Source: Planctomycetaceae bacterium
GTDB taxonomy: Bacteria; Planctomycetota; Phycisphaerae; Phycisphaerales; SM1A02
Assembly (NCBI GenBank): GCA_002685335.1
Contig: NYWY01000024.1
Location: forward strand, 1-8,311
Length of the DNA stretch: 8,311 nucleotides
Direction of reading: 5' to 3'
Shown here piece after piece: positions 1-8,311 of the stretch; the first letter of the stretch is position 1; each line of letters opens with the position of its first letter. Below the pieces are notes generated by a model, which ran no database searches, was not told where the DNA came from, and saw only the letters and a list, made by a program, of their open reading frames with translations. The translations under genes were made by a program, and so were the position numbers.

Positions 1-2720
1 AATCCCCCGCCGCCGGCCCCCGGCAACTCCCACGCCGCGAGATCCCGGGCGTGACCCGCCGCGATCGCATCGATCCGAGGATTGGTCGCCGCCGGATCGA
101 ACGCTCTCTTCAACCGCCAGTATTCCGCGAGACGTCGAGTGAACTCGTCGATGTCACCGCTCCGGATCGCCGAGGCCATCGCTTCCGCCCCGTCCTTCAA
201 CCGGCCGATGATTCGAACCGCCCCACGCTCCCGGGTGAGGTAGCGACCCACGACCTTCTCCAGAATGTCCCGCGCGAGTCGCTGCTCGCCCGAATAGAGA
301 AGAATCGCGCGGGCTTCGATCGCCTGCAGAAATTCCGAGGGAGCCGCGAGTGATTCGACCACCGGTCGCTGGCTCGGGCCCGGCGAGGTCCGCGCGATCT
401 TCAAGCCACCATGAATCCCTCCGACCTGGTCCTGCCAACCACCTCGGGTGGTCATCATCTGCTCCAACGCACTCGTCCGCTCGATGATCGACGCCCCATC
501 GATGCCATCACCGAAAAGTCGCTCCAGGCAGGCGAGCACCGTCGCCCCGAGGATGGAGCTGGTGCCCATTCCAGACCCTTTCGGCACCGCCGAGTGCAGG
601 GTGAGCACCACCCCTCCTCCGAGTCGCTCCAATCGTCGGCGAAGACTGCTCCGGGGGTCCGAGGGCGTCACCCCGGCCAGGCGGAGGGCCATCCGAGGCA
701 GGGTCGTCCAGTCCGCGGGATCCCCGGGAGCATGAAGCTGACGGGTGTTGGTGAACACCCGACTCGATCCAAGATCCACGCTGTGCACCACGATCTTCGG
801 TTCATCAAGACGCTTCGAGAATGCCTGGATCGGCGGCTTGCCATGAAGCAGCACCGCGGCGTTCACCACCGTTCCACCATGGTCGACGCACATCGGCGGG
901 GTATCGCTCCATCCGCCTGCCAGATCGATCCGGACCGGCGCGGTGCACCAGACCGCTTGATCCGGAAGCACGGTCGCCGGACGATCATCCGACGCGGGTT
1001 CGATCGGCGCGGCGATCAGATCTCCGACCCGGGCCAGTGCCCGACTCAGGTCGTCGTCCCTTCGATCATCACCCCCACGCTCGGCGAACCGACTCGCCGC
1101 GGCCGCCAGTCTCGCCCCCTCCAGATGATCGGACGCGGCATCCGAACTCCGTCGAAGCTCGGATGCGACCGACCGGGCGACCGAGCCGTCCAGACGATCC
1201 GCGATGGCTCCCACGGGAACATCCGGACGCCGACGAATCAGATCCGCTCCTTCGGATTCAAGTCGGGCCTGCTCCCATCGATCCCGATGAGCCAGCAGTC
1301 GCGGCACGTCCAGCCGTCCCAGGGCCTCGACCAGGGACCACCGAGTCCCTCGCGTCGCCCGCGGTCCTTCGCGAAGCGTTCGGAGGGCATGCGCGAGACT
1401 CGAGCCCACGGAACCGATCGACCACAGTCTCGCTTCCCGCAGCGTGCCACCGGGCTCCACGAATTCCTCGGGCGAACCCGTCCGGTCGAGGAGTGATCGC
1501 CCGCCCAGAGTGCCGCCCGCATCGATCGGCGTCTTGAAATCGTCTCGTTCGTGATGTGCGACCACCAACCAGCGGCCTCGATCCCGCCGATCCCGAATCG
1601 GAAGGGCGAGGACGCATTCACCCCGTCGAAGTTCCAACCGCGTGTTCGCGGAGATCCCGGTCACGAGATTGCGGCCGATCGATCGAATTCGTTCGTCATC
1701 ACCGTCGCGCCCCGAGTCGCGGACGAGATCGAGGTACTCCGGCGTGGTTCCCGGATGCAGGAAGGATCGCCCTCGATCCGTCTCCACCCGAAACTCCATG
1801 CCTCGGACGCCGCGACGCCATTCGGACAGGAGTCTTCGGCGATCCGATCCCGGCTCTCCACCCGCCACCCTGCGAAAGGTCACGGCATCGACCGCGGCTG
1901 GAATCGCCTTGAGCATCTCGTTGTAGAGTTCGATCGGTCCCGTCCGGCCGGCTCGGATTCCTGCGAGCAGTCCCGGGCCGACGACCAGGCGGCCGTTCTT
2001 CAGTGTCACGCCCGCAACCCGCAACCATCGACCGATCGATTCGGAATCAAAGGAAAGCACGCCGGTATCGACCAGCAGCATCCTTCCGCGACGCACCGCT
2101 CCGGCATCCCGGGCCTCGAGTTCATCCGGCTTCTGCAAGATGTCGCGCACGGAGCCATCGCTCGCTTTCACGTAGACCCCGTGTCGAGACCCACGCTCGA
2201 TCGATGCCGACTGGGCAACCCCCACCAGCCCGGGAAGATCAAGCCGGACTCCGTCCAGGGTCACCAGCGCATCACCGCTGGCCACCACGACTCGGGCACC
2301 TCGCGTCGCCCCGGCAAGCGAGGCGACGATCGCCTCGAGCATGGTTCCGGAACCCGGCCGGCCATCGTTCCGCGGGAATGGCATGAGAATCTTCCCCGCC
2401 GCCGCGAACGCCGGCAGCCGGCGGCTTTCACCCCCGGAATGCACCACCGCCACTCGCTTCCCATGCAGGAGCGAGGCGGGATCATCCGGACCGGTCTCCG
2501 CCGCGAAATGTCGGGCGGCTTGAAAACCGGCCTCGAGCGTCGCGCCCCCGGAACCGACCCGGCGCCCACCGGGATCCGGCACCACGAGAAGATCCCGGGC
2601 CGCCACCAGCCCGTCTTCGACCATCCGACCGACGACGTGACGGTAGATCTCGGCCTGCCGGGCATCCGAAGCGGTCAGGACCAGAAGGTCGAACGGGGGC
2701 GGATCATGAAACGCCGTCAT
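1..2720 (-). CDS. fkp: Bifunctional L-fucokinase / L-fucose-1-P guanylyltransferase (Fkp type), C-terminus cut by window edge
   Basis: The frame is open from an ATG at 2720-2718 to the left edge: 906 codons and no stop. Known Fkp of Bacteroides fragilis is 949 residues, so roughly 45 are missing. It makes GDP-L-fucose from free L-fucose in two cytoplasmic steps: ATP-dependent phosphorylation at C1, then GTP-dependent nucleotidyl transfer. Seen in the N-terminal pyrophosphorylase half: GSGGATL (56-62), HSGGESRRLP (94-103) followed by GKILMPFP (109-116), ASGD (147-150), and HGVYV...LQKP (180-198). Seen in the C-terminal GHMP kinase half: APVRIDLAGGWSDTPP (594-609), the ATP loop VPKGSGMGTSSILG (712-725), RGGWQDQVGG (759-768), and LPGAGGGG (899-906), the third GHMP motif, exactly at the window edge. 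These match Fkp motifs in order. No clear Shine-Dalgarno precedes the start. The gene is divergent from a fucose-type mutarotase. A heptose kinase is unlikely because the N-terminal half is the fucose pyrophosphorylase type. Confidence 0.93.
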   Translation of the reverse strand, partial: MTAFHDPPPFDLLVLTASDARQAEIYRHVVGRMVEDGLVAARDLLVVPDPGGRRVGSGGATLEAGFQAARHFAAETGPDDPASLLHGKRVAVVHSGGESRRLPAFAAAGKILMPFPRNDGRPGSGTMLEAIVASLAGATRGARVVVASGDALVTLDGVRLDLPGLVGVAQSASIERGSRHGVYVKASDGSVRDILQKPDELEARDAGAVRRGRMLLVDTGVLSFDSESIGRWLRVAGVTLKNGRLVVGPGLLAGIRAGRTGPIELYNEMLKAIPAAVDAVTFRRVAGGEPGSDRRRLLSEWRRGVRGMEFRVETDRGRSFLHPGTTPEYLDLVRDSGRDGDDERIRSIGRNLVTGISANTRLELRRGECVLALPIRDRRDRGRWLVVAHHERDDFKTPIDAGGTLGGRSLLDRTGSPEEFVEPGGTLREARLWSIGSVGSSLAHALRTLREGPRATRGTRWSLVEALGRLDVPRLLAHRDRWEQARLESEGADLIRRRPDVPVGAIADRLDGSVARSVASELRRSSDAASDHLEGARLAAAASRFAERGGDDRRDDDLSRALARVGDLIAAPIEPASDDRPATVLPDQAVWCTAPVRIDLAGGWSDTPPMCVDHGGTVVNAAVLLHGKPPIQAFSKRLDEPKIVVHSVDLGSSRVFTNTRQLHAPGDPADWTTLPRMALRLAGVTPSDPRSSLRRRLERLGGGVVLTLHSAVPKGSGMGTSSILGATVLACLERLFGDGIDGASIIERTSALEQMMTTRGGWQDQVGGIHGGLKIARTSPGPSQRPVVESLAAPSEFLQAIEARAILLYSGEQRLARDILEKVVGRYLTRERGAVRIIGRLKDGAEAMASAIRSGDIDEFTRRLAEYWRLKRAFDPAATNPRIDAIAAGHARDLAAWELPGAGGGG

Positions 2721-2800
2721 GTTCCCGATGCTACCCGTTCGATCTCCATGCTCCAGCGGGTTCGCCGTATCCTGCGGGGTCCCGATCCCCGGAATCAATC

Positions 2801-3151
2801 GTGAAGACCTTCGCACAGGCCCTTGATCTCGTCGACGACCCCCTCCGCATCGCGGAATACGAGCGTCATCACCGGGAGGCCTGGCCCGAGGTGATCCACG
2901 GTCTTCGATCCATCGGGATCCGCGATCTTCGGATCTGGCGGACCGGCACCCGTCTCTTCATGACGCTCCAGGTACCGGAAGATTTCAATCCGGCCCACGA
3001 CTATCAGTCCTACGCCGAGGATCCCCGGTGCCGGGCGTGGGATGAACTCATGCGGGACTACCAACGGCGGGTCCCTTCCGCCGACCCCAGCGACGGTGGC
3101 TGGTGGACGCCGATGACCGAGATCTTCAACCTCGAGGAGCAGGATCAATGA
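2801..3151 (+). CDS. L-rhamnose mutarotase-family protein, probably L-fucose mutarotase
   Basis: A 116-residue protein starting at GTG (2801). This start gives the usual N-terminus of the family (about 105-115 residues) and no ATG lies nearby. The family interconverts alpha and beta anomers of 6-deoxy sugars in the cytoplasm. Seen: Y20-x3-H24-x3-W28-P29-E30, the family signature; H24 aligns with the catalytic His of E. coli RhaM. GTRLFMTLQ (49-57) and a C-terminal GGWW...IFNL segment are also present. The pattern LDLVDDP near the start together with GTRLFM resembles the RhaM-fold proteins found in L-fucose clusters more than E. coli RhaM. The divergent fkp gene supports fucose as substrate. 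Its TGA overlaps the next gene's ATG in an ATGA junction, so the two are probably translationally coupled. Family assignment is firm; sugar specificity is inferred. Confidence 0.88.
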   Translation: MKTFAQALDLVDDPLRIAEYERHHREAWPEVIHGLRSIGIRDLRIWRTGTRLFMTLQVPEDFNPAHDYQSYAEDPRCRAWDELMRDYQRRVPSADPSDGGWWTPMTEIFNLEEQDQ

Positions 3152-3849
3152 CCGATCAGAATCCTTCGAAGACCGAACCTCGTCCGCTGATCTCCGCTCG
3201 CAGCTCCGCTCGGCGCCCCCTGCTCGGAAGAGGCCTTCTGATCGCCGGCGTCGTGCTGGCGGCCACCGGTCTGGTCATGGCGGCGGTCACCCCGTGGTCG
3301 GAACTCTCCGATCTTCGAGTCAGCATGCAGAAGCGGGTGGCCAACCAGACCCCGATGCGTTTCATCGCCCCGGGCGATGCCACCTTCGATCTCCCGCAGG
3401 GGCGGATCTTCGTGGCCTACCTCACCGATACCGAACTGGACGGGACTCGGTATCTCGCCTCTTCCGAACTGGTTTTCGAACTCACGGTCACCGATGCCCA
3501 GGGCAGCGTCATGGAGATCGAGTACGAAACCACCCAGCGGGCGAACCTTCCGTCCTCCCGTCCCGGAAAACCATCCACTGCGGTGCTGGTGGGCGCCGTG
3601 ACGATCCCCAAGCCGGGCCCCTACGACATCACGCTCATCCTCGGAAGGAACGAATCGAGTTCCGCGGTCGCCGACGTCTTCCTGGTCCAGGAAGACGAGA
3701 TCGAGACGCTGAACGAAGCATTCCGTCCGGTACTCGCCGCCTTCTGCGGCCTGGGAGGCGGCGGTTTCCTGTTGCTGCTCGGGGGAATCACCGTGTGGCT
3801 CGAGAAGCGAGCCCGCCTCGCCGCCGCGATCCGGTACGAGGTTCACTGA
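3148..3849 (+). CDS. Two-pass membrane protein with a large extracytoplasmic domain, function unknown
   Basis: 233 residues. I chose the ATG at 3148 because GAGGAG (3134-3139) sits 8 bases upstream and the ATG overlaps the mutarotase stop by four bases; an in-frame upstream ATG at 3103 would lie deep inside the mutarotase gene. Seen: a basic, Ser/Arg-rich cytoplasmic N-tail (1-28), a hydrophobic segment (about 29-48), a polar beta-rich stretch of about 140 residues (50-190), a second Gly/Leu-rich hydrophobic segment (about 194-217), and a basic C-tail (KRARLAAAIR) consistent with both ends in the cytoplasm. The middle part alternates short hydrophobic strands with turns and contains PKPGPYDITLIL, reminiscent of a beta-sandwich. 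I do not recognise the family. Its coupling to the mutarotase could mean a role linked to sugar use or simply a shared transcript. Confidence 0.85.
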   Translation: MTDQNPSKTEPRPLISARSSARRPLLGRGLLIAGVVLAATGLVMAAVTPWSELSDLRVSMQKRVANQTPMRFIAPGDATFDLPQGRIFVAYLTDTELDGTRYLASSELVFELTVTDAQGSVMEIEYETTQRANLPSSRPGKPSTAVLVGAVTIPKPGPYDITLILGRNESSSAVADVFLVQEDEIETLNEAFRPVLAAFCGLGGGGFLLLLGGITVWLEKRARLAAAIRYEVH

Positions 3850-4032
3850 CCGGCCGAAGATCCTCGCCCGAGACATCGACCACCCTGACACCTCAGGTCA
3901 CCCCACGCCGGAACGGTCGGACGACGACTTCGGGCGATGGATTCGGAACGAGCCCTGCTCGACCTCGATCTCACCCGGTACGAACCGGATCCACCGTCGC
4001 CAGATCACGGAAACCACGGGACGGGATGTGAA
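3850..4032. other. Intergenic stretch without a supported gene
   Basis: 183 bases between the plus-strand membrane protein gene and the hairpin next to the tRNA. The only plus-strand ORF with a start (ATG at 3937) encodes a short Asp/Pro/Arg-rich peptide that would run into the antisense of the tRNA, and no ribosome binding site precedes it. A small palindrome, ACCTCAGGT, lies at 3890-3898. I see nothing else here. Confidence 0.6.
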
Positions 4033-4060
4033 CGACGCCCCGCCGTGAGGCGGGGCGTCG
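4033..4060 (-). terminator. GC-rich 12-bp hairpin following tRNA-Thr, probable terminator
   Basis: Bases 4033-4044 (CGACGCCCCGCC) pair perfectly with 4049-4060 (GGCGGGGCGTCG) around a four-base loop, GTGA on the plus strand. On the minus strand the hairpin begins two bases after the tRNA 3' end and is followed by TTCACATCCC, so there is no real T-tract. It lies between convergent transcripts and may stop both, or act mainly as a 3' processing or stability structure. Confidence 0.6.
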
Positions 4061-4062
4061 GA

Positions 4063-4135
4063 AGCCACCAACCGGACTTGAACCGGTGACCTAAGCTTTA
4101 CGAAAGCTTCGCTCTACCAACTGAGCTATGGTGGC
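4063..4135 (-). tRNA. tRNA-Thr (anticodon CGU)
   Basis: A 73-nt cloverleaf can be laid out completely. The acceptor GCCACCA pairs with TGGTGGC over 7 bp, and the D arm is GCTC/GAGC. The anticodon arm AAGCT/AGCTT encloses loop TTCGTAA, giving anticodon CGT. The variable loop is AGGTC, and the T arm ACCGG/CCGGT encloses loop TTCAAGT. It reads the threonine codon ACG. The discriminator base is T and no CCA is encoded, so the 3' CCA must be added after transcription. It follows the 735-codon gene on the same strand, 57 bases after that gene's stop. Confidence 0.97.
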
Positions 4136-4138
4136 GGT

Positions 4139-4182
4139 GATCATTGCCTCGAGCATCCAACGGGCCTCCCCGGTGAATGATC
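4139..4182. repeat. Short inverted repeat after the exported repeat-protein gene
   Basis: GATCATT (4139-4145) and AATGATC (4176-4182) are perfect inverted copies separated by 30 bases. They lie between the stop of the 735-codon gene and the tRNA 5' end. They could form the base of a loose hairpin at the 3' end of that transcript. There is no T-tract, so terminator function is doubtful. Confidence 0.3.
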
Positions 4183-4192
4183 GGCGGTGAAA

Positions 4193-6400
4193 TCAGCCTT
4201 CAGTGATCAGGCTGACCGCTTCATCCGTGGGGAGATCGAGTGAACCGTAGAGACGACCCGCGGCATCGGCGATGCCTGCGTTGCCGCCGGCTCCGGCATT
4301 GGCCGCGATGAGTCGCCGAAGCGCCTCGCTCTGTCGAGCATCGACCCGGGATCCGAACGAGCGGGCGTTGGACGCCGCTCGGTCCAGAAGGGCGATCTGC
4401 TCGCTGGCGTTGTTGGAGGCGAGCGCCGCATCCATGAGGGCTCGCTGAGCACGTTCGGTTCCGATCAGGGCGACCACATCGGCGACCAACAGTCGCATGC
4501 CGCCGGAAATCGTCCCCATGGCTTCGAGCAGGGCGGGCTCCGCGTCGTCGACCTTGTAGACCGAGCCTTCCGCCCGAGCGATGGTGGCCAGAGTCTGAAG
4601 GGCGTTCCGGGTGTAGGTCATCGCATCGACTTCCGTCATGCGACCCCCCGAGGCCACCTTCATGAGTCGATCGACCGTGATGCCGAACTGTTCGTCGGTT
4701 CCGGCCCCATCCCAGCTCACGGTGGCTCGATCTTCCGTGAACTCCCGGTCGAGGCGGATACCGTCGATCGAGTTGGAGACGAGGAGCACGGGCGTGGCAC
4801 CGGTCCGGGCGAAGGACCGAACCCGACCCACGGTTTCCACCGCGTTGGGAACGGATTCCTGAACGATGATCAGGTCGATTCCGTTTCCACGGTTGATTTC
4901 GGCTTCAAGCTCGTAGAAGTCACCACCGGCGGCGACGACTCGGAAACCCGCGGACTTCAACATGGCGGCAAAGCGGTTTCGATCCTCTTCGCTGGACGCG
5001 ACGACCGCCGCGAACGACTGGTTCCCCGCGCGAACCGCCGAAGCGAGCAGCGGTACGACCTGGCCGTCACCCGCGAACGCGGAGGACGGGAGGGCCGAGC
5101 CGAGGACGAGGGCGGCGTCGTACTGAACCCGTCGATCGGGGTACAGGAGGCACTCGAGCAACGGCGAACGGCCACCGGCAGCGAACATGCTGCCTCGGCC
5201 GACGGTATGTCCAAGGGCTTCGATCGCATCACGCACCAGGGCGGTGTCGTCGGCGTCGATCGCCATGGCGAGCACGTCGCGACAGATCGAACTGCCGGAG
5301 GCGGTGGCGAAGAACTGCGGCGAATAGGTCGAGTCGGCTTCAAACGGATCGGACTCGTCGCTTCCCAACTGGTTCTCGCGCCGAAGGTCCGCGGCGACGA
5401 AGGTCGACAGGGCCATTCGATTGGTCGGCTCGGCTTCCAACGCCGCCCGGGAGCAACGCATGGCCATCACCTGACTGAAGATCGAGGTGGGCACCGGCGT
5501 CGGGACGAGTCCCGAGTGAGCCCCGTAACTCCAGACGATGTTCTCGGAATCGCCGGGATAGGCGACGAGCGACTGATCCTCGGCGAAGAACTTGCGACCG
5601 AGCGCGGTGTAGGCGGCGGCGATGTCGGTGGACGTACCTCCGAGACGACGGAACGCGACGTTGGCCGCGTCCCGGACTTCGGGGGTCGTGCGGCGGTCAT
5701 TCGCCACATCCAGCAGGAACGGGATGGCCGTGGGCCAGCCGATCGCGGAGAGGATCCGGCAGACCTTGGCCTGGACGATCGGTGAAAGTTCGGGGAGTGC
5801 GGCACAGAGCGGAAGAACCGCCTGCCGCTTGATCTCTTCGAGCACTTCGGTGACGCGGAGTTCCGCCTCGGGACTCTTGGTGGTGACCAGCGTCTCCAGA
5901 AGTTCGGGGACCGCGTACTCGCCGGCTTCGACCAATCGTCGGCGGCCCATCAACTGCGAGCGAAGGGAACCATCCAGCATGCCGATCGCTTCGCGGATTC
6001 GATCCTGGTTGCGAGCGAGATCGTCGCGTCCTTTTTCGAGGCGGTTCTCGAAATTGGTGACCATCGGGCCGACGCCGCTCATGCCGCGGCCTCGCGTGAG
6101 TGCCCGCTCGACCTTGTCGTTGAGGTTGTTCTCGCGAACGATCTCTGCGATCTCGGCATCGGTGGTGCCGGATTCCATGAGCTTCTGGGCGGCCGCCTCG
6201 GCGAGGTCCGGCTTTGCGATCAGCAGGTAGTGGAGGAAGTCCTCGACCAACTGCGTGGGGTTCGTCGCAGCGTCCTGCACCAGCAGGTGACTCGATGAAG
6301 CGGCAGTAGCCGTCAGCGGCGCGATACCGGCGACGATGACGCCACCAACCGCGATCGAGCGAAGAAGTCCAGCGGTGGTGGTGCGGGAGTTGCGAGCCAT
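4193..6400 (-). CDS. Exported HEAT-like repeat protein with a degenerate receiver-like domain
   Basis: 735 residues, ATG at 6400-6398, preceded by GAGGAA (6412-6407) with six bases between. Seen: a signal peptide with basic N-region and hydrophobic core (SIAVGGVIVAGIAPLTATA, about 15-33), so the protein is probably exported. Residues 46-140 are helical and charged. About 157-255 and 411-457 form amphipathic helix pairs of the HEAT/PBS-lyase kind (for example AVPELLETL, AIPFLLDVA, EVRDAANVAFRRLG). Residues about 461-585 follow the alternating strand/helix order of a response-regulator receiver: FAAVVASSEED, LKSAGFRVV, GIDLIIVQES, TPVLLVSNS. The acidic pocket and phosphoacceptor Asp are replaced (Q514 where Asp is expected). 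The last 150 residues are Ala-rich helices. I know no experimentally defined function. A scaffold or regulatory role in the periplasm is a guess. The following tRNA is on the same strand. Confidence 0.88.
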   Translation of the reverse strand: MARNSRTTTAGLLRSIAVGGVIVAGIAPLTATAASSSHLLVQDAATNPTQLVEDFLHYLLIAKPDLAEAAAQKLMESGTTDAEIAEIVRENNLNDKVERALTRGRGMSGVGPMVTNFENRLEKGRDDLARNQDRIREAIGMLDGSLRSQLMGRRRLVEAGEYAVPELLETLVTTKSPEAELRVTEVLEEIKRQAVLPLCAALPELSPIVQAKVCRILSAIGWPTAIPFLLDVANDRRTTPEVRDAANVAFRRLGGTSTDIAAAYTALGRKFFAEDQSLVAYPGDSENIVWSYGAHSGLVPTPVPTSIFSQVMAMRCSRAALEAEPTNRMALSTFVAADLRRENQLGSDESDPFEADSTYSPQFFATASGSSICRDVLAMAIDADDTALVRDAIEALGHTVGRGSMFAAGGRSPLLECLLYPDRRVQYDAALVLGSALPSSAFAGDGQVVPLLASAVRAGNQSFAAVVASSEEDRNRFAAMLKSAGFRVVAAGGDFYELEAEINRGNGIDLIIVQESVPNAVETVGRVRSFARTGATPVLLVSNSIDGIRLDREFTEDRATVSWDGAGTDEQFGITVDRLMKVASGGRMTEVDAMTYTRNALQTLATIARAEGSVYKVDDAEPALLEAMGTISGGMRLLVADVVALIGTERAQRALMDAALASNNASEQIALLDRAASNARSFGSRVDARQSEALRRLIAANAGAGGNAGIADAAGRLYGSLDLPTDEAVSLITEG

Positions 6401-6428
6401 CGAGCGTTCCTCGGAGGGGGGGGTTGGT

Positions 6429-6443
6429 CCCGCCTTCAGCGGG
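6429..6443 (-). other. Leader hairpin in the 5' untranslated region of the repeat-protein gene
   Basis: CCCGC / GCGGG around a five-base loop, 29 bases upstream of the start codon of the minus-strand gene. A second, 6-bp hairpin (CCATCC / GGATGG, 6477-6495) and a third (CGTGGC / GCCACG, 6556-6573) lie further upstream. They may structure the leader. No riboswitch class is recognised on this strand. Confidence 0.35.
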
Positions 6444-6644
6444 AGCAGTGGACGAAAGAACGATTGTCGGCGATCACCATCCTGAAAAAGGATGGCCTTG
6501 CCTCGAATCTGAGCCCGATGCCGATCGGATGATCGGCCGCGAGCCCGTGCGGAGCCGTGGCGAGAAGGCCACGAGGGTCACCTGACGCATTTCGCAACCT
6601 CGGCGGGAAGGGTTCCGCGGGATCGCGCGACGGGTAGAACGAGA

Positions 6645-6674
6645 AGAGTACCGGGCCTCGGAAGAGGGTGTCAA
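6645..6674 (-). promoter_or_regulatory. Sigma-70-like promoter candidate for the exported repeat-protein gene
   Basis: On the minus strand a perfect TTGACA (6674-6669) is followed after 18 bases by TACTCT (6650-6645), a weak -10 matching 3 of 6 consensus bases. Transcription would start near 6638, leaving a leader of about 240 bases before the ATG at 6400. The perfect -35 is the main support. Confidence 0.4.
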
Positions 6675-6736
6675 CGGGTCCGATCATCGGCGCGGCGTCC
6701 ACAGAGCCCAGATCGGTGGAGTTGGAGGACGCCCGA

Positions 6737-6742
6737 TATACT
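6737..6742 (+). promoter_or_regulatory. Possible -10 element upstream of the B12 riboswitch
   Basis: TATACT on the plus strand, 5 of 6 to consensus, in a locally AT-rich patch within GC-rich DNA. It is placed about 55 bases before the riboswitch core, which suits a leader start near 6750. No recognisable -35 lies 17 bases upstream, so this is tentative. Confidence 0.35.
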
Positions 6743-6795
6743 TTTCGCTGGAACGGGTCCCGCGTCGTCGCGGGCGGCCTGATGCCGACCCCTCG

Positions 6796-6990
6796 GGGCG
6801 GATCAGGTCGAAGGGAAGGCGGTGAAAAACCGCCACGGACGCGCCGCCGTGACAGGTGAGGGTCGTTTGGAGACCCTCGAAGCGGGCCGAACACGCCACT
6901 GATCCCCAGGTCGTTTTCCAGCGACCGCCCACGGGAGGTCGGGAAGGCCGGTCCGCAGTACCTGGAGTCGGAAGACCTGCCCGGTCATCA
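6796..6990 (+). promoter_or_regulatory. Cobalamin (vitamin B12) riboswitch aptamer
   Basis: The conserved boxes of the class appear in order and spacing. GGGAA (6813-6817) comes first, then the GGTGAAAAACC hairpin (GGCGGT/ACCGCC, 6818-6834). Next is CGGACGCGCCGCCGTGA (6836-6852), equivalent to the consensus CGGaCCCGCCrCTGTGA. A variable hairpin follows (GAGGGTC/GACCCTC, 6858-6878), then GCCACTG (6895-6901), a hairpin GGTCG/CGACC (6909-6926), GGGAAGGC (6941-6948), and the 3' box GGAGTCGGAAGACCTGCC (6964-6981). CAGGTC (6804-6809) pairs with GACCTG (6974-6979) and closes the aptamer. The RNA is known to bind cobalamin and lower expression of the downstream gene when B12 is plentiful. The target is the secreted-protein gene starting at 7055 and the prepilin-like gene coupled to it. 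Exact aptamer ends and ligand subtype (adenosyl- or methyl/aquo-cobalamin) cannot be fixed by eye. Confidence 0.9.
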
Positions 6991-6995
6991 CCGTT

Positions 6996-7040
6996 GCCCG
7001 CTTCGGCGGGCCACTACCTGAGGCCGGCGCGATTCCGGTC
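6996..7040 (+). promoter_or_regulatory. Riboswitch expression platform with two hairpins before the start codon
   Basis: The first hairpin is GCCCGC (6996-7001), UUCG tetraloop, GCGGGC (7006-7011). The second is GGCCGG (7022-7027) paired with CCGGTC (7035-7040), one G-U pair, loop CGCGATT (7028-7034). Its loop bases CGCG can pair with CGCG (6840-6843) in the aptamer hairpin loop ACGCGCCG, which would be the L5-L13 kissing contact typical of this class. The second hairpin ends 14 bases before the ATG, next to the only weak ribosome-binding match (GGA, 7044-7046). No T-tract follows, so control is more likely translational than by termination. Confidence 0.55.
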
Positions 7041-7054
7041 CTTGGAATCCATTC

Positions 7055-7978
7055 ATGCGTGCAGGCCTGCTCCCCCCCCGTTTTCTCACGATCTCGCCCC
7101 TGGTCGTCATGAGCCTCGTTTTCGAGGTCCCGGCAGAATCTCCCTTTGCGACCGAAGTGATCGATTTTCAGCCTGGTCGAGGCGGAGTTCCTGGCTACGA
7201 CCTCCCCGCTGCGGCCCTCGGAACGCCGACCCGGATGACGGGCGGCGACTTTCTCCCGGAAGCGATCACTCCGTTTCAACCGGCCTGGCTGCCTCAGGAG
7301 ATCGTCTCTCTAGGGATTGGCGGTTCGATCACCCTCGCCTTCGATCATGACGTCCTCGACGACCCGAGCAATCCTTTTGGCATCGACCTTCTGATCTTCG
7401 GTAACGCGTTCTGCACCGATCCCGCCTATCCCGCCGCGGTCTGTGGCGGTTTCTATGCCGAAGGCGGTCAGGTGGAGGTGAGCTTCGACGGGATCGACTG
7501 GCGAATCGTTCCCGATCTCGCCGCGGATGGTGCCTTTCCCACCGTCGGCTGGCTCGATACCGGTCCCTACGACACGGTGCCTGGATCGAAGCCGACGGAT
7601 TTCACCCGTCCGGTCGACCCGGCCCTCGAGTCGAATCTCCAGGGACTCGACTTCGACGCCATCATGGTGGGGTACGACGGCGCCGGCGGGGGTACCGGCA
7701 TCGACCTGGCCATCGTGGGTCTGCCAGCCGTACGATTCGTCCGCATCTCCAACGACGGCCTGGGATTCACCCCGGAGATCGATGCGATCGCTGACGTCTC
7801 ACCCGCACGATCGAACCCACAGGATCCGGATCTCGATGGAAACGGCACCGTCGGCGGTGGCGACCTCGGCCTGATGCTCGTCGCCTGGGGAACCACCGGC
7901 CCTCTCGGAGATCTCAATGACGACGGGCTCGTCAGCGGTCCCGACCTGGGCCTGCTGCTGGTGGCGTGGGACGGATGA
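7055..7978 (+). CDS. Secreted beta-rich surface protein with dockerin-like C-terminal repeats, under B12 riboswitch control
   Basis: 307 residues from the ATG at 7055, the first start after the riboswitch. Seen: a signal peptide (basic start, hydrophobic LTISPLVVMSLVF, about 11-23, small residues near 27-29). A beta-rich domain (about 33-250) follows with many Asp/Gly turns; it includes GGSITLAFDHDV (89-100), PFGIDLLIFGNAF (107-119) and VEVSFDGIDWRIVPD (140-154). C120 and C130 could form a disulfide. The tail has two dockerin type I-like calcium loops, DLDGNGTVGGGDLGLMLVAW (259-278) and DLNDDGLVSGPDLGLLLVAW (286-305), with Asp/Asn at the alternating ligand positions. Such tails are common on secreted planctomycete proteins. 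The stop overlaps the next start (ATGA). I infer a role in the B12 response at the cell surface, perhaps ligand capture. The beta domain resembles proteins annotated only as 'cell surface protein'. Confidence 0.88.
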   Translation: MRAGLLPPRFLTISPLVVMSLVFEVPAESPFATEVIDFQPGRGGVPGYDLPAAALGTPTRMTGGDFLPEAITPFQPAWLPQEIVSLGIGGSITLAFDHDVLDDPSNPFGIDLLIFGNAFCTDPAYPAAVCGGFYAEGGQVEVSFDGIDWRIVPDLAADGAFPTVGWLDTGPYDTVPGSKPTDFTRPVDPALESNLQGLDFDAIMVGYDGAGGGTGIDLAIVGLPAVRFVRISNDGLGFTPEIDAIADVSPARSNPQDPDLDGNGTVGGGDLGLMLVAWGTTGPLGDLNDDGLVSGPDLGLLLVAWDG

Positions 7979-8311
7979 TCAGTACACCTCCTCTCCATCG
8001 CCGCGGCATGACCATCGTGGAAGTGATGACCACGATGGGAATCATCATCATCCTCGCAAGCCTCGTCGCGACCGCCGCCGGTGTGGCCCGAGATTTTTCT
8101 CGGAGCACCGTCTGCCACGCCAACCTCCGGCAATTGCACCTGGCCGCGGAAACCTACCACGCGACCAGCAATGGATACCCCGCCGCCATCCTCTTCTTCC
8201 TCGACAACGGCGGGGTCCGCACCACATCCTGGGATTTCGATCACCGAGGCGACGGCACGATCGAACCGGGCCCGATCTGGAATTATCTCGACGGACCCGA
8301 GTCCGTCTTCC
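7975..8311 (+). CDS. Prepilin-like protein (type II secretion / type IV pilus pseudopilin), C-terminus cut by window edge
   Basis: 112 codons are visible from the ATG at 7975, open to the right edge. The ATG overlaps the stop of the preceding gene by four bases, so both are on one B12-riboswitch-controlled transcript. Seen: a class III signal peptide with basic HRRG (8-11) before the prepilin peptidase site, then MTIVEVMTTMGIIIILASLV, with the conserved Glu at position +5 (E16) of the mature protein and a long hydrophobic helix to about residue 36. After it come CHANLRQLHLAAETYHATSNGYP (shown in part here: NLRQLHLAAETYHA, 50-63), the usual stem region of planctomycete prepilins and GspG-like proteins. 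The globular part is only partly visible (WDFDHRGDG, 86-94). It would be processed by a prepilin peptidase and assembled in a pseudopilus. It could be a major or minor pseudopilin; the missing C-terminus would decide. Confidence 0.85.
   Translation, partial: MISTPPLHRRGMTIVEVMTTMGIIIILASLVATAAGVARDFSRSTVCHANLRQLHLAAETYHATSNGYPAAILFFLDNGGVRTTSWDFDHRGDGTIEPGPIWNYLDGPESVF

Follow-up and report, generated by a model that had tools for sequence, protein, structure and literature searches.

We report that a locus in an 8,311-nt stretch of DNA from Planctomycetaceae bacterium (GenBank assembly GCA_002685335.1, contig NYWY01000024.1, positions 1 to 8,311 of the forward strand) probably represents an operon for the scavenging of B12, found in one order of the Phycisphaerae, in which a cobalamin riboswitch precedes the genes of a BtuH-like capture protein and of a dedicated pseudopilin. 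We place the probability of this reading at roughly 0.8. All coordinates refer to this stretch, and "the window" denotes its whole length rather than the locus alone.

The window was searched with Rfam cmscan, which identified a match to the Cobalamin model RF00174 at 6738..6998 (+). This match covers the full model (1-189) and scores 60.4 bits against a gathering threshold of 31.5 (E 2.3e-13). The B12 box GCCACTG was read from the sequence within the aptamer core (6895..6901, +) and is aligned in the cmscan output. The original prediction, made from the sequence alone, had described a near-canonical cobalamin riboswitch in this leader; the search confirms it and places the start of the aptamer 58 nt upstream of the start given there. 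Between the aptamer and the start codon lies a 56-nt spacer (6999..7054, +), presumably the expression platform, which opens with a GC-rich hairpin based on sequence reading and RNA folding. Given the usual behavior of this riboswitch class, B12 likely represses the operon, which would be on at low B12 and off when B12 is plentiful.

The first gene (7055..7978, +) encodes an exported protein of 307 aa with 481 homologues. Its N-terminus is hydrophobic by eye and its core is beta-rich in the structure model, in agreement with the exported beta-rich protein first proposed. When the model was submitted to a fold search, BtuH2 and BtuG1 were recovered as matches of the core. Profile-profile alignment with BtuH using hhalign then gave a score of 63.1, relative to at most 20.1 in 60 permutations, and a bridge protein (L191) ties the family to BtuH/BtuG1 with an E-value of 1.3e-17. 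The predicted BtuH-like B12-binding domain spans residues 27-250 (7133..7804, +). Within it, hhalign matches Asn117 (7403..7405, +) with Asn399 of BtuH2, and this residue is invariant in the 38 rows of our alignment of the core (A2). BtuH2 is described as contacting B12 through Asn399, which binds the phosphate, and through His476, Trp511 and Trp577 (PMC8941943); the latter three fall outside the 82 columns of the hhalign alignment. The link to BtuH was first drawn from the fold search. By sequence, hmmsearch of the core-only profile against the PDB returned no true match and did not recover BtuH. We use the name "BtuH-like" rather than BtuH since inspection of the window sequence by eye showed no cysteine close to where its signal peptide ends, such as a lipoprotein anchor would require.

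The earlier reading also attributed a dockerin tail to this protein, and this attribution holds at the level of the family. The family profile (A1) matches PDB dockerin chains over residues about 255-303 (7817..7963, +), with a best E-value of 5.3e-5. The whole-protein profile matched 188 PDB sequences by hmmsearch, and the best 60 of these correspond to the tail and are mostly of dockerin, EF-hand or calmodulin type. In contrast, Pfam and NCBIfam returned no family at E <= 1 for the single window sequence, tail included. We refer to this segment as a dockerin-like or EF-hand-type tail.

Fold, motif and genomic context together make a role of the surface protein in B12 capture well supported by sequence and modeling, and the fold and profile matches to BtuH2/BtuG1 lend independent support to what had been a guess. 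Residues 27-250 would then constitute the part that binds B12. Alternatively, the protein could be a carbohydrate- or surface-binding adhesin of the CBM32/discoidin type, for which B12 merely signals attachment. CBM32/discoidin-type proteins were indeed among the fold matches, but the BtuH2 and BtuG1 chains scored about 3 Z units or more above them. The profile and sequence bridges also lead to BtuH/BtuG1, and other riboswitch operons of the order encode DUF4465 proteins or adjoin a BtuB-type receptor (see below). These observations make an adhesin very unlikely.

The second gene (7975..8311, +) runs off the end of the window and encodes a pseudopilin, a prepilin of the DUF1559/H-X9-DG type. 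As originally proposed, it is joined to the first gene by an ATGA overlap of 4 nt: its ATG begins at 7975 and runs into the TGA at 7976-7978. The window copy is incomplete at its 3' end and matches PF07596 (DUF1559) with 24.8 bits, above the cut-off of 23.3. Its match to the N_methyl family PF07963 (17.3 bits) is below the cut-off of 21.2. In the full-length relative L004, the situation is reversed, with PF07963 above its cut-off and PF07596 below (15.6 bits). The window copy carries a class III prepilin signal (RRG-MTIVE, with the glycine, a hydrophobic stretch and E at +5) and is 73% identical to the member of locus L001 (alignment A6). The full-length protein of L001 yields a pilin-like structure model with a helix at residues 16-67. 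An H-X9-DG-type motif (FRH..9..DG) is visible in full-length relatives, and the window copy ends before it. TIGR04294 gave weak matches in 6 of 32 cases.

We then analyzed the conservation of this architecture in relatives. Scanning of species genomes yielded 187 confirmed relatives; the best 80 were retained, and all 80 genomes were searched with RF00174. A riboswitch was found shortly upstream in 72 of the 80 loci. Among the first 30 genomes, 27 contain exactly one riboswitch above the cut-off. These and a match of G010 below the cut-off lie on the strand of the gene, 40 to 287 nt before its matched part; no riboswitch was found by this search in G014 and G019. Among the next 50, a match was found within 900 nt upstream in 44 (one of them below the cut-off), and in 38 the upstream riboswitch is the sole one above the cut-off. 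In four of the eight loci without one (L031, L032, L055 and L079), the contig extends no more than 320 nt upstream, and L014, L019, L037 and L075 are true misses of the RF00174 search. The bin of L079, whose record is titled Caulobacteraceae, looks mixed. Both genes could be scored in 56 of the 80 loci; a possible prepilin start shares 4 nt with the stop of the preceding gene in 37 of these and 1 nt in 8, a permissive count that uses whichever start is closest to the stop. The gene order (riboswitch, surface protein, prepilin) is conserved, as expected from the original prediction, and since the architecture recurs in most relatives examined, it is not due to chance.

The genes that follow the pilin are more variable. 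They encode MoeA, a BFD-type 2Fe-2S protein, or a RibBA-like protein (L189, by eye), or are replaced by an immediate convergent mutL. In L002-L008, L010 and others, the pilin is followed by genes for a 249-aa protein (resembling a hydrolase by eye, with no Pfam match), MoeA, and MoaD/ThiS or BFD-type 2Fe-2S proteins, and convergent genes for MutL and NadE come next after these recurring genes. It could be argued that the riboswitch serves these third and later genes (MoeA, MoaD, hydrolase-like), present in several relatives, and that the first two genes are passengers. We give this idea almost no weight, since the third genes vary and the first two are the constant part. Additional genes also occur within the operon. 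Loci L055, L059 and L060 present a PQQ-type propeller protein between binder and pilin, and the copy of L059 shows a weak dockerin match in the family search. In L190-L194, an extra gene, propeller-like by eye, occupies the gap between riboswitch and binder; we considered naming it "BtuG-like" and rejected this name, as the protein of L194 had no sequence match in Pfam or the PDB.

To avoid choosing loci by the protein, we drew 121 genomes evenly by taxonomy from the order of G001, the first of the 80 genomes above (20 are shared with these 80), and searched them with the domain profile and RF00174. In total, 125 riboswitches above the cut-off were identified in 113 of the 121 genomes, with exactly one in 101 genomes. 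Domain matches were divided into strong and weak at 113 bits. A riboswitch on the same strand, no more than 3 kb upstream, was present in 57 of the 63 genomes with a strong match and in 29 of the 30 with weak matches only; 38 of the 125 riboswitches had neither. For 105 riboswitches, leaving aside 20 whose genomes had been covered above, we then retrieved up to 6.5 kb of downstream sequence. Pilin family members were found in 95 of the 105 stretches (E under 1e-15) and BtuH-like proteins in 78 (E <= 1e-3 with any of three profiles). A second secreted family, A5, was found in 18, including two marginal cases (L215 and L224) in which the matched frame is the BtuH-like one. No pilin match was detected in 136 control windows from the flanks of the first 80 loci. 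However, the pilin profile picks up further pilins of these genomes as well; from the median number of first-look candidates, 78 per genome, we estimate that a match would occur by chance at a rate near 7%. The ten stretches without a pilin comprise five with none of the families, four with A5 only and one with a BtuH-like protein only, and two of the ten are cut by contig ends at 3.1 kb or less (L233 and L235). The association of a pseudopilin with the B12 regulon, central to the original prediction, therefore extends to a sample drawn independently of the protein.

One of the five riboswitches with none of the families, that of L197 (G135:C161), is followed by the gene of a ribonucleotide reductase. 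Its alpha subunit has PRK07207 as best NCBIfam match, and a beta subunit was recognized by eye. This arrangement points to a B12-independent isozyme under B12 control. Such isozymes are classic targets of cobalamin riboswitches.

The protein that precedes the pilin is not always BtuH-like. In L250 and L271, the riboswitch operon encodes a DUF4465 protein (E 5.8e-32 and 3.5e-33, respectively). DUF4465 proteins, including "Pan" of Mucisphaera calidilacus, are reported to retain B12 in a study that names TonB, ABC and propeller genes in their genome context (PMC13398666); the words pilin and planctomycet are absent from its main text. Mucisphaera calidilacus itself belongs to the Phycisphaerales. 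Distant members of the order possess BtuB-type receptors. In L239, L242, L245 and L282, the riboswitch lies before such a receptor, with no pilin, BtuH-like or A5 protein. TonB-B12 is the best-matching family of the receptors tested (L239 and L242), and its matches reach 270 to 291 bits in G094, G108, G119 and G175, below the curated cut-off of 599.7. The receptor of G108 is followed by an ExbB-type gene, an ExbD-like gene (by eye) and a TonB-type gene. In G108, G119 and G175, a separate riboswitch-pilin unit lies directly before the receptor unit.

The A5 proteins are about 170-200 aa long with a PEP-CTERM-like tail. Second or sub-cut-off cobalamin riboswitches are followed by A5 at 13 of 16 such sites, and at L183 by eye. 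The A5 alignment comprises L161-L163, L177, L179-L182 and L184-L188, and excludes L164 and L178. The sub-cut-off riboswitch matches at A5 sites often extend over only 70-150 nt and possibly represent a compact variant aptamer. NCBIfam SCO2322 matched 9 of the 13 A5 members weakly (best E 9.2e-6). By eye, we had considered A5 to be transcobalamin-C-like (DUF4430), and we rejected this assignment, with no Pfam support and an empty PDB profile search; A5 is treated here as a secreted family without assignment. A DUF4430 (PF14478) protein is encoded at L164:8505-9566 (-) of G073, beside a second, strong cobalamin riboswitch, where VWA and MotA/ExbB-type genes are also found.

The physiology of the carriers was assessed in 30 genomes, G001 to G030, all of which carry the gene. 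As these are mostly draft metagenome genomes, absences are soft. CbiC was found in none of the 30 genomes; based on this one gene, de novo synthesis of B12 is unlikely. A domain of the B12-dependent methionine synthase MetH was found in 26 of the 30. (In 11 of the 26 matches to its activation domain, e.g., in G015, G017, G018 and G026, one TGA was counted inside the match, which may be just the terminal stop.) These carriers look like B12-dependent auxotrophs. A FecCD (BtuC-type) permease, which may carry B12, was found above the cut-off in 29 genomes. TonB receptors (PF00593) were found in 17, with at most two per genome, and no clear BtuB was found in any of the 30: TonB-B12 matched in four, never above 95 bits. 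Four of the PF00593 receptors were sampled (L143, L148, L173 and L176), and their best-matching families were of heme, zinc or Xanth-Caul types rather than B12. The original prediction had named a TonB-dependent receptor or BtuFCD as possible operon partners. Neither was seen in the operons of the window's nearer relatives, which qualifies its interpretation; where examined, FecCD is encoded away from the operon, next to an ATPase gene (L167) or together with a Peripla_BP_2 gene (L168). T2SSE-type ATPases were found in all 30 genomes.

We propose that low cellular B12 would permit expression through the riboswitch and that plentiful B12 would shut it off. The secreted BtuH-like protein would capture B12 outside the cell, held or displayed by its dockerin-like tail, and the general type II/type IV filament machinery would assemble the dedicated pseudopilin. 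The latter would either present or pull in captured B12 at the outer membrane, or move the capture protein outward, and a BtuFCD-type permease encoded elsewhere would complete import. The mechanical part played by the pseudopilin may be that of a pilus, a pseudopilus or a secretion aid. We give close to even odds to display and retraction as the way in which it helps at the outer membrane. A more specific version appears unlikely in that exact form: the pseudopilin would form or tip a pilus-like fiber bearing the BtuH-like, DUF4465 or other binder, and retraction would deliver B12 to the periplasm, replacing BtuB at the outer membrane. Alternatively, it may be a cargo-specific type II secretion pseudopilin that exports the binder and does not handle B12. 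This differs from the scavenging scheme in the last step only and is a serious, if minority, possibility. However, the pseudopilin is also found behind riboswitches without a recognizable secreted binder between them (L231, L241 and L270), and it is retained while the preceding protein switches family, both of which weigh against a role restricted to export. A role other than display, retraction or export of the binder seems improbable.

The remainder of the window contains genes outside the operon. A HEAT-repeat protein of 735 aa (4193-6400, -) is directed away from the riboswitch operon; its cluster (cluster 0) comprises 71 ORFs, and many of the 80 loci keep it beside the operon. A tRNA gene (4063-4135, -; anticodon CGU by eye) adjoins it. 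Further upstream, genes for a fucose pyrophosphorylase/GHMP-kinase fusion (3-2816, -) and an L-rhamnose mutarotase (2801-3151, +) are divergent with overlapping 5' ends.

One route for B12 across the Gram-negative outer membrane is well described, namely BtuB with TonB. The carriers possess a FecCD permease and a B12 riboswitch with no clear BtuB, and the riboswitches mostly lead to a capture protein and a pseudopilin. There would then be two possibilities, each of them new: participation of type II/IV filaments in the uptake of a vitamin, much as competence pili take up DNA, or a secretion pseudopilin that serves a single vitamin-binding protein. Our searches of open-licence PMC texts showed no description of the riboswitch, BtuH-like protein and pseudopilin system, and no joint mention there of "cobalamin riboswitch" and "planctomycete" or of BtuH, planctomycetes and B12. 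These results suggest that planctomycetes may scavenge B12 in a new manner and provide a functional lead for one branch of their abundant H-X9-DG pseudopilins.

Like other planctomycete H-X9-DG/DUF1559 pseudopilins, this family presents a class III prepilin signal, a pilin-like model, a PF07596 match and, as seen in full-length relatives, an H-X9-DG-type motif. Unlike them, it is under a cobalamin riboswitch, and in the window's nearer relatives it keeps a distinct conserved globular part with the motifs TGYNYNT, GANKFMRAP and NGFLSDDD. A planctomycete precedent for macromolecule capture exists in Planctopirus limnophila and Gemmata obscuriglobus, in which gold-labelled dextran was captured on pili-like crateriform fibers (PMC5394234); that work concerns other bacteria and another ligand, with no gene link to the present pseudopilin family shown. 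The capture protein shares with the H-domain of BtuH2/BtuG1 from Bacteroides thetaiotaomicron (PDB 7BIZ and 8BLW) the fold of the binding domain, the phosphate-binding Asn within a GNAF motif, and a gene located 3' of a cobalamin riboswitch and encoding an exported protein. It differs in lacking a lipobox (by eye), in its dockerin-like tail, in the pseudopilin gene that comes next and in the absence of a visible btuB from the operon in the window's nearer relatives. Among the B12 contacts of BtuH2, only the equivalent of Asn399 lies within the aligned columns, and the corrin contacts are not among them. PMC8941943 describes BtuH in gut Bacteroidetes and in three species of Firmicutes; our results would extend the BtuH-type domain beyond these gut bacteria. 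Finally, the operon resembles the BtuB-BtuG-BtuH-BtuJ loci of Bacteroides in the riboswitch control of exported B12 binders (here predicted) and in the presence of the BtuJ family (DUF4465) in some operons of the order. In Bacteroides, however, the outer-membrane step belongs to BtuBG, whereas the most constant partner here is a pseudopilin.
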